This document shows positions 17,789 to 23,856 of a stretch of 45,907 nt of DNA, piece by piece. The notes below the pieces were generated by a model. It did not search any database. It saw only the letters and a list, made by a program, of their open reading frames with translations, and was not told the DNA's origin. Made by a program: the position numbers and the translations under genes. The DNA is from Hydrogenophilales bacterium (lineage in GTDB: Bacteria > Pseudomonadota > Gammaproteobacteria > Burkholderiales > Thiobacillaceae), in the NCBI GenBank assembly GCA_024636675.1, contig JAGXGM010000045.1, positions 1 to 45,907 of the forward strand. Reading direction: 5' to 3'. How positions within the stretch are numbered: position 1 is the first letter of the stretch; each line of letters begins with the position of its first letter.

Positions 17789-18637
17789 TCATGCGCGCAT
17801 CACCTGCTGCTTGAAGGTTTGATACAAGCCATCCATCCGCTGTGCCAGCGGCCCCGGCACACCGGTGCCGACCGGCGCACCATCGAGTTTGACGATGGCC
17901 ATGACTTCCTTTGTCGACGAGGTCATCCACAGCTCGTCGGCGCCGCGCACCTCGGCTTCGGTAATTTCCCGCACCTCGTGGGGAATGCCATTCGCCGCAG
18001 CGAGTTCCAGCACCACGTCGTAGGTGACGCCGGTCAGCATCAGGTTCGACGGCGGCGGCGCCCGCAGCACACCATCCTTCACCAAAAAGATATTGCTCGC
18101 CGCGCCCTCGGTCAAAAAGCCGTCGCGCAACATCACGGTCTCGGCGCAATCGACGTCTACCGCCTGCTGGCGCAGCAGAATATTGGCCAGAAGCGAGATA
18201 GCCTTGATGTTGCAGCGCAGCCAGCGGTTGTCGACGGCGCAGACGGCGCAGACGCCGGCGGCCTTTTGCGCAGGGGTAGACGTCAGCAGCGGCTGCGCGA
18301 ACATGAAGACCGTCGGCGGCACCCCTTTCGGAAACGCGTGATCGCGCGGCGCGACCCCCCGGGTCACCTGGATGTAGACCGATTGATCGGCGAAATCCTG
18401 CAGTTCGACCAGCCGCAGGATCAATTCGCGCCATTCGGCCATCCCGTACGGATTGGTCAGGCGGATGCCATCGAGGCTGCCTTGCAGGCGACGCAGATGC
18501 TCGTCGAGCCGGAACGGCTTCCCGGAGTAGACCGGCACCAGTTCATAGACGCCGTCGCCAAAGACGAAGCCGCGGTCGAGTACCGGAATTTTTGCCTCGG
18601 CAAGCGGCAAAAACTGACCGTTGAGGTAAACGCTCAT
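17789..18637 (-). CDS. dat: D-amino-acid aminotransferase (PLP fold-type IV)
   Basis: 282 residues from the ATG at 18635-18637, overlapping the stop of the DacC-like gene (ATGA). Fold-type IV aminotransferase: DRGFVFGDGVYELVPVYSGK near the N-terminus, the PLP lysine in NIKAISLLANIL, and phosphate-binding residues in LTGVTYDVVLELA and MTSSTKEV. The context (cell-wall hydrolase genes) fits formation of D-alanine or D-glutamate from keto acids; an ilvE-like role on branched-chain amino acids is the alternative. An earlier in-frame start would add ten residues inside the previous gene. Confidence 0.9.
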   Translation of the reverse strand: MSVYLNGQFLPLAEAKIPVLDRGFVFGDGVYELVPVYSGKPFRLDEHLRRLQGSLDGIRLTNPYGMAEWRELILRLVELQDFADQSVYIQVTRGVAPRDHAFPKGVPPTVFMFAQPLLTSTPAQKAAGVCAVCAVDNRWLRCNIKAISLLANILLRQQAVDVDCAETVMLRDGFLTEGAASNIFLVKDGVLRAPPPSNLMLTGVTYDVVLELAAANGIPHEVREITEAEVRGADELWMTSSTKEVMAIVKLDGAPVGTGVPGPLAQRMDGLYQTFKQQVMRA

Positions 18638-19749
18638 TTCGAGAAGAAAAGCCGGATTGAGTCCCAACCACGGCCAAAGACGCCAGCCACGGCGACATCG
18701 TGCAGTGCGACCAGGGGGTAATCGCCGATCGGCTTGCCATCAAGCATCAGCCGCAGCGCGCCCAAGCGCTGCCCTTTGCGCACCGGCGCCACGATCGGCC
18801 GCCGGGTGATCACTTCGGCCTTGACGCGAGCGGCATCCCCCGCCGGAACCAGCAAATGGAAATCCTGCTCAAACCCGATACTCACCGTCGAGCGCATCCC
18901 CCGGTAGAGAGGCACCACCTTGACCGGCTGCCGGGCGGGATATAGCCGCATGCTGTCGAAATTTTCGAAACCGAAATTCAGCAAGCGCAGGGCATCCTGC
19001 GTGCGCTGCGCATCGGAACGTCCGCCCAGCACCACGGCAATGCGCCGTTGATCGCCCCGCTGGGCGGACGCCGCCATGCAGAAGCCGGCCTGAATGGTAC
19101 GCCCGACCTTGAGGCCGTTTACCGTGCTGTCGCGCCACAGCAGGCGGTTGCCGTTGTAATGGGTGATGCCCTTGAAGGTCAATTCCTTCTGCGCAAAAAA
19201 ACCTTTCCGCTCGGGAAAATCGCGCAAGAGTGCGCGTGAAAGCAGGGCAAGGTCGCGGGCGCTCGACTCGTGTCCCGGCTCAGTCAATCCGGTGGCGTTC
19301 ATGAAGCGGGTTTGGGTCATGCCCAGCCGCTTGGCTTCGCGATTCATGCGTTCGACAAACGCCGCCTCGCTGCCGTCGGCCGCCAACACCAGCGTTAACG
19401 TGGCGTCGCCTGCCGATTGCACCAGCATCGCCTGCATCAGGGTATCGACACTTACCTGATCACCCGCCTTGAGAAACACGCGCGCACCGTCGATCTCGGT
19501 CGCGGCTTCCGGCACGGTAAGCGCCTCGCCCAGGCTCAGCTTGCCCTTGCGGATGTCACCCAGCAGCACATAGGCCGTCATCAACTGCGTCAACGAGGCC
19601 GGCGCCAGCGGCAGATCAGGCTGGTAGGAAGCCAATTCGTGCCCGCTGACCTGGTCAATCACCACCCAGGCGCGTGCCATGATGCCGGCAGGCGCCGCCC
19701 ATGCCGATGCGGAAAACAGGAGCGCCAGCCCCAACCAGAAAATCTTCAT
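18634..19749 (-). CDS. DacC-like (PBP5/6 fold) protein with degenerate active site
   Basis: 371 residues from the ATG at 19747-19749 (AAGGG upstream; a TTG at 19765-19767 would overlap rlpA). Signal peptide MKIFWLGLALLFSASAWA. The fold is that of a low-molecular-mass D,D-carboxypeptidase, but the catalytic motifs are changed: SxxK is S52-L-T-Q55 (no lysine), SxN is S112-A-G114 (no asparagine), and KTG is K214-V-G216. The remaining scaffold, including the C-terminal beta domain (FHLLVPAGDAARVKAEVITR) and a basic amphipathic tail for membrane attachment (GWDSIRLFFSK), is intact. A pseudoenzyme with a binding or scaffolding role near the divisome/elongasome is the best inference; substrate binding alone may remain. 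Frame is intact, so recent decay is unlikely. Confidence 0.9.
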   Translation of the reverse strand: MKIFWLGLALLFSASAWAAPAGIMARAWVVIDQVSGHELASYQPDLPLAPASLTQLMTAYVLLGDIRKGKLSLGEALTVPEAATEIDGARVFLKAGDQVSVDTLMQAMLVQSAGDATLTLVLAADGSEAAFVERMNREAKRLGMTQTRFMNATGLTEPGHESSARDLALLSRALLRDFPERKGFFAQKELTFKGITHYNGNRLLWRDSTVNGLKVGRTIQAGFCMAASAQRGDQRRIAVVLGGRSDAQRTQDALRLLNFGFENFDSMRLYPARQPVKVVPLYRGMRSTVSIGFEQDFHLLVPAGDAARVKAEVITRRPIVAPVRKGQRLGALRLMLDGKPIGDYPLVALHDVAVAGVFGRGWDSIRLFFSK

Positions 19750-19763
19750 CCGTTGCCCTTTAA

Positions 19764-20591
19764 TCAATCGTGTCTGACCAAGACTGCATTCAGGTCGAGA
19801 CGTTCCCGCACCCGCGCACGATCCGTATGCGCGGCAGCGTCGCCGGGATAAGGCCCGAGCTGCACACGATGCAGTTCGCCGTTGAGCACCACACGGCTGC
19901 GGCCAGGATCAAGTTCGAGTGCGTTCGTCAAACGGTCGAGCAGTTGCTGCGCATTGTCGGCGCGCGAAAACGCGCCCACCTGCAGATAGACATCATCACG
20001 CAATGCATTGCCTTGCCTGTCATCGGGAGCGAGGTCGATGCTTTCCACTCGCACCCGCGTGCTGCCGCGCTTCAAATAACCCAGCTTGTGGGCCGCGGTA
20101 TACGACAGGTCGATGACGCGCTTGCTGTGGAACGGACCGCGATCATTGATCCGCACCACTACGGATTTTCCGCTGTCGAGCGCTGTGACCCGAACATAGC
20201 TGGGCAGCGGCAGGGTGGGGTGTGCGGCGGTCATGGCATACATGTCGTACACCTCGCCCGATGCGGTTTTCTTGCCGTGGAAACGTTTGCCGTACCACGA
20301 AGCCATGCCTTCCTCGCGATGCGCGCGGCGTTCGGTCTGCGGCGTGTAGGTATTGCCCAGCACGGCATAGGTACGGTTGGCGAAGCGATGCAGCGGCTCG
20401 TCGCGCGGCACCGCGTCGGGAACGGCATCCAGGTTGGGCGGTGGGCGGGCCTCAGGGCCATCGTCAAGGTAATAACCGCCGCTTTTGGCTGTCGTTGCAG
20501 GCTGGGTGGGCGTGGAGGGACTGCTGCCACAACCGGCAAGCGCCAGAACGACGGCAAGCCGGCTCAGGATCGGTATCGATATTTTATTCAT
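19764..20591 (-). CDS. rlpA: RlpA family septal-ring lipoprotein / lytic transglycosylase
   Basis: 275 residues. Lipobox LALAGC puts the acylated cysteine at residue 21. The double-psi beta-barrel domain spans about residues 94-185: GMASWYGKRFHGKKTASGE, then RVTALDSGKSVVVRINDRGP and VIDLSYTAAHKLG hold the active-site aspartate (NDRGP). A C-terminal SPOR domain (about 200-275: DVYLQVGAFSRADNAQQLLD ... VQLGPYPGDAAA) binds denuded peptidoglycan at the septum. In the canonical order rodA-rlpA-dacC; stop overlaps the start region of the DacC-like gene. Cleaves stem-less glycan strands in relatives; activity here not tested. Confidence 0.94.
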   Translation of the reverse strand: MNKISIPILSRLAVVLALAGCGSSPSTPTQPATTAKSGGYYLDDGPEARPPPNLDAVPDAVPRDEPLHRFANRTYAVLGNTYTPQTERRAHREEGMASWYGKRFHGKKTASGEVYDMYAMTAAHPTLPLPSYVRVTALDSGKSVVVRINDRGPFHSKRVIDLSYTAAHKLGYLKRGSTRVRVESIDLAPDDRQGNALRDDVYLQVGAFSRADNAQQLLDRLTNALELDPGRSRVVLNGELHRVQLGPYPGDAAAHTDRARVRERLDLNAVLVRHD

Positions 20592-20608: not shown

Positions 20609-21709
20609 TCACGATTTATTGAGCTGGCGATGCGTCGCCACGCTCATCAGGATGCCCATGCCCAGTAGCAGCGTGATCAGCGCGGTGCCGCCGTAGCTCA
20701 TCAGCGGCAGCGGCACGCCGACCACCGGTAGAATGCCCGACACCATGCCTATATTGACGAACGCGTAGGTGAACAGATTGAGGCTCAGCGTGGCCGCCAT
20801 CAGTCGACCGAACAGCGTCGGTGCCCGCGCCGCGATGACCAGCCCGCGCGCGACAATGGCCAGATACAACCCGATTAACAGAATTACGCCGACGTAGCCG
20901 AATTCCTCGCCGAACACGGCAAATACAAAATCGGTTGTCCGCTCCGGGATGAAGTCGAGTTGGCTTTGCGTGCCCTGCATCCAGCCCTTGCCGAACAGCC
21001 CACCCGAACCGATCGCGATGGTCGACTGGATGATGTGGTAGCCGGCACCCAGCGGGTCCGACGTGGGATCGAGCAGGGTCAGCACGCGGCGCTGCTGGTA
21101 GTCGTGCATCAAGCTCCACACCACCGGCAGGCTGGCTGCTCCCAGCACGCCGCCGCCGAAGATGACTTTCCATGGCAGTCCGGCAAAGAAAAGCAGATAG
21201 AAGCCCGAGGCGCCGAGCATCAGCGCGGTGCCCAGATCGGGCTGCCGCAGGATCAGGAGAAACGGCACCAGCAGGAGCACGCCGCCGACCAGGAAATGCT
21301 TCGCACGCAGCACCGCCTCGTTGCGCTGGAAATACCAGGCCAGGGTCAGGGGCAGCGCCAGCTTCAGCAGCTCAGACGGCTGGAAGGACATGAAGCCCAG
21401 ATTCAGCCAGCGGCGCGAGCCGTTGCGGACTTCGCCGAACAGCGCCACCCCGATCAGCAGCACCACGCCCGCAAAAAACAGGGGCGGCCCCACCCGGGAC
21501 AGCAGATGCGGCGGCACATTGGCCATCACCACCATCACCCCCAGCGCCAAGCCCATGTTGATCAAGTGGCCGCTGATCCGCGCCGGGTTCTGACCCGACG
21601 CGCTCACCACCACCGCCAGGCTGACGCCCAGTAGCAGCAGCACCAGGACCAGCAGCATGCCGTCCAAGTGACTCAGCCTGCGCACAATCCAGTGGCTAGT
21701 GCGCGGCAT
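20609..21709 (-). CDS. rodA: Peptidoglycan polymerase RodA (SEDS family)
   Basis: 366 residues from the ATG at 21707-21709, preceded by AGGA; a much longer frame upstream runs through non-coding sequence and is not used. Ten hydrophobic segments; conserved SEDS blocks include GSRRWLNLGFMSFQPSELLK with the periplasmic motif, and LILRQPDLGTALMLG, FIPERTTDFVFAVFGEEFGY and GVPLPLMSYGGTALITLLLG, containing the essential acidic residues. With PBP2 (mrdA) it polymerises glycan in the rod complex organised by MreBCD. Unusually, a spacer of about 254 bases separates it from mrdA. Confidence 0.96.
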   Translation of the reverse strand: MPRTSHWIVRRLSHLDGMLLVLVLLLLGVSLAVVVSASGQNPARISGHLINMGLALGVMVVMANVPPHLLSRVGPPLFFAGVVLLIGVALFGEVRNGSRRWLNLGFMSFQPSELLKLALPLTLAWYFQRNEAVLRAKHFLVGGVLLLVPFLLILRQPDLGTALMLGASGFYLLFFAGLPWKVIFGGGVLGAASLPVVWSLMHDYQQRRVLTLLDPTSDPLGAGYHIIQSTIAIGSGGLFGKGWMQGTQSQLDFIPERTTDFVFAVFGEEFGYVGVILLIGLYLAIVARGLVIAARAPTLFGRLMAATLSLNLFTYAFVNIGMVSGILPVVGVPLPLMSYGGTALITLLLGMGILMSVATHRQLNKS

Positions 21710-21963
21710 CGTGAGTCCTTCCTGGCAAACAATCCCGGCAAGCGTTGTTGGGTATTCCGGGCGCAAGCATGACGCGGGTGGCTGTGAAGCGTTGTTCCAT
21801 TGGCAAGCCCCGCGGCGCCAAAGACGCCTGAATACACCACAACGCTCCGGGTTGAGCCCGCTTGTGGCGCATATCGGTGTTGCAAGCCGCTGGTTGTGAA
21901 TGGCACAAGCGCGCGTCTTGCGCATTGGTCTGCATCAAAATCGATTCCCATCGCTTGCCCGGA
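21710..21963. other. 254-base spacer between mrdA and rodA
   Basis: No credible gene: the open frames (for example 21696-21971, 91 codons, starting in the ATGA of the mrdA stop) have compositions unlike proteins and no motifs. The decamer AAGCGTTGTT occurs twice (21740-21749 and 21787-21796), and its complement core ACAACGCT once near 21837. The stretch could hold a promoter or processing site dividing the operon. Confidence 0.4.
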
Positions 21964-23856
21964 TTATTCATTGACGAGCCCCGCCTCCGGCTTCATGTCG
22001 TCGGGCAGCTTCCCGGTCAGGTAATAATCGAAGACCTTGCGCGCGATCGGCGCTGCGGTGCCACTGCCCGAACCACCATTCTCCACCACCACTGCCACGA
22101 CGATGGTGGGGTTTTCGGTCGGCGCATAGGCTATGAACAGCGCATGATCAAGATGTTCCCGCGCCAGCTGGCTGGCTTCGTAGCGCGCGCCCTGCTTGAT
22201 GCCGACCACCTGCGCGGTCCCTGTCTTGCCGGCAATGGTGTAGGGCGCGCCGGCCGCCGCTCTGGCCGCGGTGCCGCCCGGACGCATCACGTCCATCATG
22301 CCCTCGCGTACGACATCCAGGTGTTCCGGGGTGATCGCCACCTGGACACGTGCGCCGCCCGCCTGCGGCTGCCATATTTGCGCATGCGGGTCGCGCACCG
22401 CCTGCACCAGACGCGGCTCGATCCGGATGCCGCCATTGGCAAGCATGGCCGTCGCCACCGCCAGTTGCAGCGGTGTGGTCAGGTGATAACCCTGACCGAT
22501 ACCGGCAATCACCGTCTCACCGGGATACCATGATTTGTTCCAGCGGCGCTGCTTCCAGTCGCGCGAGGGAAGCAGTCCGGATGATTCCCCGTCCAGGTCG
22601 ATGCCGGTTTTCTCGCCCAGACCGTACTTCGCCAGGTAGTCGTGCATGCGGTCGATACCCATGTCCACTGCCAGTTGGTAATAGTAGACATCGCACGACT
22701 GGGAGATGGAGCGGCGCAGGTCGACCACGCCGTGCCCGCCGCGCTTCCAGTCACGGAACTGATGGCTGCTGCTGGGCAGGCTGAAGAACCCGGGGTCCTT
22801 GATGCTGTCCGACGGTTTGCGCAACCCCAGTTCGAGGCCGGCCAGCGCCAACAACGGCTTGATTGTCGATCCGGGCGGATAGACGCCGCGCAGCGCGCGG
22901 TTCACCATCGGCCGGTCGGGCGATTCGTTGAGCGCCTTCCAGGTTTCCGGATCGATGCCATCAACAAACAGGTTGGGATCGAATCCGGGCCGGGAGACCA
23001 GCGCCAGCACCCCACCGGTGTTGGGATCGAGCGCCACCAGTCCGCCCAGGTAATCGCCGAACGCCTGTTCGGCCACCGCCTGCAGCCCGGCGTCGAGATG
23101 CAGGCGCAAGTCCTTGCCCGGCACCGGCGCAATCCTCGACAGCATGCGCACTGCCCGGCCGCTGGCGTCAGTCTCCATCTGGTCGAACCCGGTGCGGCCG
23201 TGCAGAAGTGATTCGTAACTCTGTTCCAGCCCGGTCTTGCCGATGTGGGCGCTGCCCTTGTAGTTCTGCTCGCGGCCGTCTTCACGCAGCTTTTTCAGGT
23301 CGCGGTCGTTGATGCGGCCAACAAAACCCAGCACATGCGCCATGCCCGGGCCGGCCTGATAGTTGCGGAACAGTCGCGCCTTCACCTCCACCCCTGGCAG
23401 GCGATAACGGTTGGCGGCGATGATCGCCACCTCCTCGTCGGTCAGCTTGCTTTTCAAGGGCACGGTCTCGAACTCGTGCGACTCGCTCAACAACCGGCGG
23501 AAACGGCGCAACTGCCCCGGCGATATCTCGATCAGCGTACCCACCATGGCCAGCGTGGCCTCGAGGTCATCGGTCTTCGCTTGCGTGAGCTCGAGCGTAT
23601 AGGCCGAATAGTTTTCCGCCAGGATGCGGTTGTTGCGGTCGAGGATCAGCCCGCGGCTGGGCGCGGCGGGCACCCGTGAAGTACGGTTGCTTTCGGCGCG
23701 CTGGATGTAATGGTCGTGCTGCACGACCTGCAGATAAAACCCGCGCGCCAGCAGCGCGGTCGCCAGCAGCGCAACGAAGGCTGCACCCACTTTCAACCGG
23801 CCATGAAAGCGGGCAAGCTCGCGATCCAGATTCTTCAATTGCGTGGCCAAGCTCAT
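21964..23856 (-). CDS. mrdA: Penicillin-binding protein 2 (rod-complex transpeptidase)
   Basis: 630 residues. N-terminal cytoplasmic tail and transmembrane helix (VGAAFVALLATALLARGFYL), the PBP dimerisation domain with RAESNRTSRVPAAPSRGLIL and RNNRILAENYSAYTLEL, and the transpeptidase domain: SxxK at S330-T-I-K333, SQSCDVYYYQ as the second motif, and K544-T-G in AGKTGTAQVV. Crosslinks the lateral wall with RodA as glycan polymerase. ATG six bases after the mreD stop. The C-terminal tail (FDYYLTGKLPDDMKPEAGLV) is short, as usual for this class. All three motifs are canonical, in contrast to the DacC-like protein downstream. Confidence 0.96.
   Translation of the reverse strand: MSLATQLKNLDRELARFHGRLKVGAAFVALLATALLARGFYLQVVQHDHYIQRAESNRTSRVPAAPSRGLILDRNNRILAENYSAYTLELTQAKTDDLEATLAMVGTLIEISPGQLRRFRRLLSESHEFETVPLKSKLTDEEVAIIAANRYRLPGVEVKARLFRNYQAGPGMAHVLGFVGRINDRDLKKLREDGREQNYKGSAHIGKTGLEQSYESLLHGRTGFDQMETDASGRAVRMLSRIAPVPGKDLRLHLDAGLQAVAEQAFGDYLGGLVALDPNTGGVLALVSRPGFDPNLFVDGIDPETWKALNESPDRPMVNRALRGVYPPGSTIKPLLALAGLELGLRKPSDSIKDPGFFSLPSSSHQFRDWKRGGHGVVDLRRSISQSCDVYYYQLAVDMGIDRMHDYLAKYGLGEKTGIDLDGESSGLLPSRDWKQRRWNKSWYPGETVIAGIGQGYHLTTPLQLAVATAMLANGGIRIEPRLVQAVRDPHAQIWQPQAGGARVQVAITPEHLDVVREGMMDVMRPGGTAARAAAGAPYTIAGKTGTAQVVGIKQGARYEASQLAREHLDHALFIAYAPTENPTIVVAVVVENGGSGSGTAAPIARKVFDYYLTGKLPDDMKPEAGLVNE

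Follow-up and report, generated by a model that had tools for sequence, protein, structure and literature searches.

A DacC-type protein of the Thiobacillus elongation operon with all three active-site motifs altered: a likely pseudoenzyme

It is an open question why bacteria have several redundant DD-carboxypeptidases and whether these proteins do more than trim. Lineages that in nature keep such a protein without its catalytic residues would separate the two roles without mutagenesis, and offer direct material for testing. One candidate lies in contig JAGXGM010000045.1 of a Hydrogenophilales bacterium (assembly GCA_024636675.1); the window analysed here is this whole stretch of 45,907 nucleotides, contig C76 of a genome of 2.54 Mb in 90 contigs (81% complete) whose near relatives are Thiobacillus. 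In PBP5-type enzymes, the Lys of SxxK, the Asn of SxN and the Thr of KTG each matter for acylation. An initial annotation, made from the window alone, had read a DacC-like gene with SLTQ, SAG and KVG in place of these motifs and proposed that its product is a pseudoenzyme. We found the three altered motifs at exactly the residues it gave, in a gene that we call dacX:

18634..19749, minus strand: dacX (name used here), altered DacC-type S11 protein of 371 amino acids, stop included, defined by translation, profile search and 53 full-length copies from the genus
19585..19596, minus strand: SLTQ (residues 52-55) replacing SxxK; Ser52 kept, Lys55 changed to Gln
19408..19416, minus strand: SAG (residues 112-114) replacing SxN; Ser112 kept, Asn114 lost
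19102..19110, minus strand: KVG (residues 214-216) replacing KTG; Lys214 and Gly216 kept, Thr215 lost
19003..19005, minus strand: Arg249, Arg in 53/53 altered and 85/85 intact copies, which we take to be equivalent to the carboxylate-binding Arg248 of Escherichia coli PBP5

Altered motifs throughout Thiobacillus

Could the altered motifs be an error of one assembly? We sampled 56 Thiobacillus genomes and read dacX in all 53 that hold it at full length. The motifs were altered in every one, including two single-contig genomes (G011 and G023), which rejects sequencing or assembly error as their source, goes far past what chance would give and shows the change to be common to a clade. The initial annotation had likewise argued against a sequencing-wide artefact from the nearby mrdA, whose STIK and KTG motifs, read by eye, are indeed present. 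In the three other genomes, dacX was in two pieces around a gap with altered motifs present (G008), reduced to a 147-amino acid C-terminal piece with the motif positions outside it (G111), or not found (G024, 81% complete). A back-translated PASLT[QH]xM pattern gave four matches over 399 genomes of the order: three were Thiobacillus dacX, and the fourth (G140) was rejected as a chance hit outside any S11 frame. Of note, this pattern skips TTG leucine codons and missed the window's own genome, and so has little bearing on absence.

Across the 53 copies the motifs are altered rather than erased. Residue 52 is always Ser, and residue 55 is Gln in 52 copies and His in one. Ser112 and Ala113 are invariant and are followed at 114 by Ser (36 copies), Gly (11), Val (3), Thr (2) or Ala (1); Lys214 and Gly216 are likewise invariant, with Val (45) or Ala (8) between them and Arg (51) or His (2) at 217. 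None of SxxK, SxN and K[TS]G, the signatures of an active serine DD-carboxypeptidase, is therefore present, as Lys, Asn and Thr are lost in 53/53. One could still argue that dacX encodes an ordinary, perhaps weak, DD-carboxypeptidase that tolerates its motif changes, given that the nucleophile and half of each motif are kept and that S-A-N variants exist among intact proteins. We consider this improbable, since the acylation base, the SxN Asn and the KTG Thr have changed together in all 53 copies.

Intact relatives, a second copy and selection on dacX

Was the ancestral protein at this locus intact? Among 61 other Thiobacillaceae genomes, the best matches to dacX reach at most ~52% identity. 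We read 22 of them (43-51% identity), and SxxK, S[GA]N and KTG were kept in 22/22, whereas dacX, in the same operon position, is altered in all three. When the neighbours were checked at 20 of these loci, 18 had rlpA and mrdA or rodA adjoining and two had dat only. Given the intact motifs and the same neighbours in these relatives, the altered dacX is the positional orthologue of an intact DacC. All dacX sequences in an 88-protein tree group as a single clade (100/100), whose stem measures 0.75 changes per site; where exactly this clade falls among Thiobacillaceae proteins is weakly supported (92/75).

In the window the locus reads mrdA-rodA-rlpA-dacX-dat, with mrdA three genes upstream of dacX; the open reading frames (ORFs) and profile matches thus bear out the rodA-rlpA-dacC-dat order first described:

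21964..23856, minus strand: mrdA (PBP2), transpeptidase motifs present, from the ORF list and profile search
20609..21712, minus strand: rodA, from the ORF list and profile search; start chosen here, the longer listed frame running from 21925
19764..20591, minus strand: rlpA (DPBB_1 and SPOR domains), from the ORF list and profile search
17789..18637, minus strand: dat, class IV aminotransferase (PF01063), its start ATG overlapping the dacX stop

On the DNA fetched around the 53 genus copies, rlpA, dat and lipB are present in 53/53, rodA in 51 and, the flanks being short, mrdA in 10.

The window's genome also holds a second, intact DacC-type copy (SLTK/SGN/KTG, contig C15) and a PbpG-type copy (C27). 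An intact DacC is present in 55/56 genus genomes, the exception being G022 (75% complete), and SLTK/SGN/KTG were found in all 24 copies read. This copy lies away from the wall operon: rlpA, rodA or dat adjoined it at 0/23 loci checked, and several loci adjoin a dicarboxylate-symporter-like gene. Separately, an S13 (DacB-type) match was found in 14/14 genomes tested, five of them Thiobacillus. One genome, G121 (79% complete, 6% contamination), has two different intact DacC copies (G121:C99:19786-20940 and G121:C124:1645-2805, which share 86% and 80% identity with the intact copy in the window's genome) and is probably a mixed bin.

Where did the intact copy come from? In the 88-protein tree the intact copies sit together as one clade, on a long stem (0.96), amid other families' proteins. 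Forcing them into one clade with dacX costs 32 log units (approximately unbiased (AU) test, p 0.0376). On the strength of this placement and p value, we hold with moderate confidence that the intact copy has an origin apart from dacX. A lineage duplication followed by neofunctionalisation, rather than independent acquisition, is the less likely account, though far from negligible. In its favour, both copies co-occur in the genus, the free tree is better by only those 32 log units, and no donor was found among 300 genomes searched, the best matches outside the genus being ~50% identical. Against it stand the grouping of the intact copies with other families' proteins rather than with dacX, and the AU result.

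We next consider whether dacX is maintained. Its frame runs from an ATG at 19749 to a TGA stop at 18634-18636, and encodes a signal-like N-terminus, an S11 catalytic domain (residues 19-244), PBP5_C (264-352) and a C-terminal helix. By profile and fold it belongs to the peptidase S11, PBP5/PBP6 fold family (Peptidase_S11: E 5.6e-58, 196.7 bits against a cut-off of 27.6), in line with the open frame and intact fold blocks of the initial annotation. It also matches three NCBIfam equivalogs, DacD, DacC (PRK10001) and DacA (245.9/610, 240.6/765 and 234.7/694 bits, score/cut-off); because these scores fall far under the curated cut-offs, membership in none of the three follows, and "DacC" is a loose name for dacX. 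The C-terminal parts are:

18694..18960, minus strand: PBP5_C domain, residues 264-352 (Pfam PF07943, E 6.8e-18; model pLDDT mostly 87-92)
18637..18693, minus strand: C-terminal helix, residues 357-370 in the model (pLDDT 40-57, weakly predicted; kept in relatives), a probable amphipathic membrane anchor

Omega (dN/dS) was estimated in IQ-TREE under codon models (MG+F3X4, with kappa set to 1), dacX being represented by 27 of its 53 sequences. The values were 0.131 (dacX), 0.132 (intact copy), 0.143 (rlpA), 0.116 (dat) and 0.141 (dacC of other Thiobacillaceae). As its omega is level with that of intact genes, dacX is constrained like a working gene. With kappa free, the catalytic and C-terminal domains gave 0.111 and 0.152 in dacX, and 0.092 and 0.152 in the intact copy; the catalytic domain is at most slightly relaxed, and these values do not support retention of the C-terminal PBP-binding domain alone. 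Open frames in 53 full-length copies and an omega of 0.13 also reject dacX as a pseudogene. The dacX stop and dat start overlap as ATGA (18634-18637), which hints at translational coupling of the two genes, and a decaying dacX might keep its frame only for that purpose. We regard this as very improbable: omega equals that of intact genes, length is near-constant in 53/53 copies, the new residues are fixed, and coupling would not conserve protein sequence.

The pocket itself has been remodelled. In 85 intact proteins, 95 columns reach a conservation of 90% or more; dacX keeps 64 of these at 90% or more, while 22 fall below 50% (including 47, 55, 113, 114, 122, 197, 200, 211 and 215). In addition, dacX has 19 columns in which a residue rare among intact proteins is fixed to at least 98%. 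Pocket segments of the catalytic domain, picked by the family's known layout, evolve more slowly than its other parts (0.70 vs 1.01, p 0.040); the intact copy gives 0.50 vs 0.83 (p 0.054). With Ser52, Ser112 and Lys214 invariant and its evolution still slow, the pocket, though changed, is probably still used.

Such a pocket could belong to a re-wired enzyme, acting via Ser52 activated by Lys214 and Ser112 instead of Lys55, either with a different substrate or as a slow acyl-trap. The invariance of Ser52, Ser112, Lys214, Gly216 and Arg249 in 53/53, the near-fixation of Gln55 (52/53) and fixation of Ala113 (53/53), as if a specific new site had been selected, and the slow pocket all speak for it. 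However, positions 114 (S/G/V/T/A) and 215 (V/A) vary loosely for a catalytic site, and Lys55 is conserved in 85/85 intact proteins; we therefore judge this explanation unlikely.

Broken motifs elsewhere in the order

Is the loss confined to Thiobacillus? We surveyed 122 proteins from 121 genomes in 49 families of the order, and 30 lacked at least one of Ser52, Lys55, Ser112, Asn114, Lys214, Thr/Ser215 and Gly216; as the sample was chosen partly for low scores and partly from families already hit, 30/122 is not a frequency. Some rows were set aside: second loci of a genome (the G000 intact copy was kept), additional members of families that the sample already covered, S11 frames that were short or of PbpG type (L186-L203), L224 because its frame is split, L227 because it is a piece at a contig end, and L299-L303, whose scores do not mark them as DacC-type. 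Five altered proteins are from Thiobacillus and 25 from seven other families (f18 7, f25 5, f2 3, f44 3, f19 3, f20 3, f23 1); f2, f19, f23, f25 and f44 also have intact members. The SxxK Ser or Lys is lost in 18 proteins from six families. Outside f1, all three motifs are broken in eight proteins and only one in eight, and the latter may keep some activity.

Broken-motif orthologues elsewhere in the order include L182, L184, L185, L217, L219, L221, L223, L225, L226, L228-L233, L236, L249 and L295-L298, with motifs such as HLTK, AALTQ, NAND with LMAG, and PMGLSG. In L181 (G229) the SxxK Ser is replaced by Ala (AALTK) with the other motifs intact; seen in one genome, this could be an error or a young pseudoenzyme. 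Family f25 also has a third S11, next to its long DacC and PbpG: short frames (L193, L198-L201 and L203; 266-276 amino acids) with motifs mostly intact and little room for a C-terminal domain.

In a tree built with the motif columns masked, eight changes explain the altered state and eight clades are wholly altered, whichever of four intact roots is used. The tree behind these counts is a quick one without bootstraps, in which f19 and f20 join by long branches, f23 is one genome and the f25 pair L181/L183 rests on two single-motif changes. Omega in the broken groups was 0.053 (f18), 0.102 (f2), 0.252 (f19), 0.057 (f20), 0.102 (f44) and 0.153 (genus g36 of f25), next to 0.135 and 0.087 in two intact comparison groups, all from small groups of three to seven sequences; the broken groups are under purifying selection.

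In f2, f18, f23 and f25 the altered gene adjoins dat or lipB, in f19 it adjoins lipB only, and two of the three f20 loci share this neighbourhood; neither gene was found beside the f44 locus checked or in G135 of f20. For the altered S11 genes L236 (G135) and L238 (G159), no dat or lipB matches occurred within ~4 kb on either side, so the operon there has either been rearranged or diverged too far. An extra S11, short and intact, occurs in genus g36 of f25; elsewhere, the altered genomes that we searched yielded only the altered gene and weaker S11 matches, with no second intact DacC seen in most families. Taken together, the motifs suggest that catalytic loss is not peculiar to one gene or genus; it looks like a recurrent fate of this gene, with Thiobacillus the cleanest case.

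A possible binding role and its known counterparts

What, then, might dacX do? It combines lost catalytic residues with a kept fold and purifying selection, as a pseudoenzyme does, its inactivity being predicted from sequence. The reading we lean towards is that dacX is an elongation-operon resident DacC turned pseudoenzyme, exported and anchored in the inner membrane, which the sequences suggest now binds rather than cuts. Genus-wide fixation, the same locus, selection, fold, pocket constraint and the second copy are what the sequences provide; from these we infer that dacX is inactive and anchored in the membrane, and likewise its binding partners, its ligand and the order of events. A Thiobacillus ancestor would also have had a second DacC, now the intact copy, able to supply DD-carboxypeptidase activity. 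The resident copy could then have lost Lys55, Asn114 and Thr215, residues needed for acylation, and been rebuilt around the kept Ser52, Ser112, Lys214 and Arg249. Once exported, dacX would be held in the inner membrane via its C-terminal helix, where its PBP5-like body and C-terminal domain may dock on PBP2/RodA or bifunctional penicillin-binding proteins (PBPs) and its remodelled pocket may hold a peptidoglycan stem peptide without cutting it. In this way it might mark or regulate sites of wall growth, or tune the intact DacC.

Several points weigh against this reading. The invariant Ser52, Ser112 and Lys214 are not needed by a pure scaffold; catalytic-domain omega is slightly above that of the intact copy (0.111 vs 0.092); the C-terminal domain is no more constrained than the catalytic one (0.152 vs 0.111); the pocket signal (p 0.040) is weak, with 0.054 for the intact copy on the same test; and, as most other altered families showed no second intact DacC, the replacement story does not generalise. 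Moreover, catalytically dead E. coli PBP5 (S44G) is reported neither to localise nor to complement (PMC2909392), and dead DacC (S66G) to fail to complement at high pH (PMC10269652); dead PBP4 is reported still to reach midcell (PMC9166362). A natural pseudoenzyme with time to adapt need not, we would expect, act like a fresh point mutant. The pseudoenzyme first proposed is thus likely right as far as fixation, purifying selection, the intact second DacC and the shared locus go, and is tempered by the three invariant residues and by similar loss in other families. Each of the checks suggested along with it, for a clade-wide change, for a second intact copy and by dN/dS, gave a result in its favour.

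More tentatively, and with less probability, the DacC of this operon may have a non-catalytic job older and more essential than its chemistry, so that repeated catalytic loss across the order leaves it kept as a binding protein, giving recurrent pseudo-penicillin-binding proteins of which those of Thiobacillus are the most uniform. Should the broken forms indeed fail to bind penicillin, they would, despite being PBP-like, not be drug targets, and their annotation as carboxypeptidases would be wrong.

Among titles and abstract openings in the open-licence literature, we found no description of inactive bacterial S11 proteins. The closest known systems are PBP6/DacC and PBP5/DacA of E. coli, also S11 proteins, from which dacX differs by replacement of the SxxK Lys, SxN Asn and KTG Thr and of several more pocket residues that are otherwise conserved. 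Both E. coli proteins are reported to bind PBP1a, PBP1b, PBP2 and PBP3; most of these contacts require the C-terminal domain, but a DacC lacking it continues to bind PBP2, which mrdA encodes (PMC10269652). It is because of these contacts, and because dacX sits in the mrdA operon with both domains kept, that we favour a binding role. As an analogy only, the degenerate LytM activators of peptidoglycan amidases (EnvC, NlpD and ActS), as reported (PMC12440217), are likewise dead wall hydrolases used as regulators; dacX is of an unrelated fold and enzyme class.
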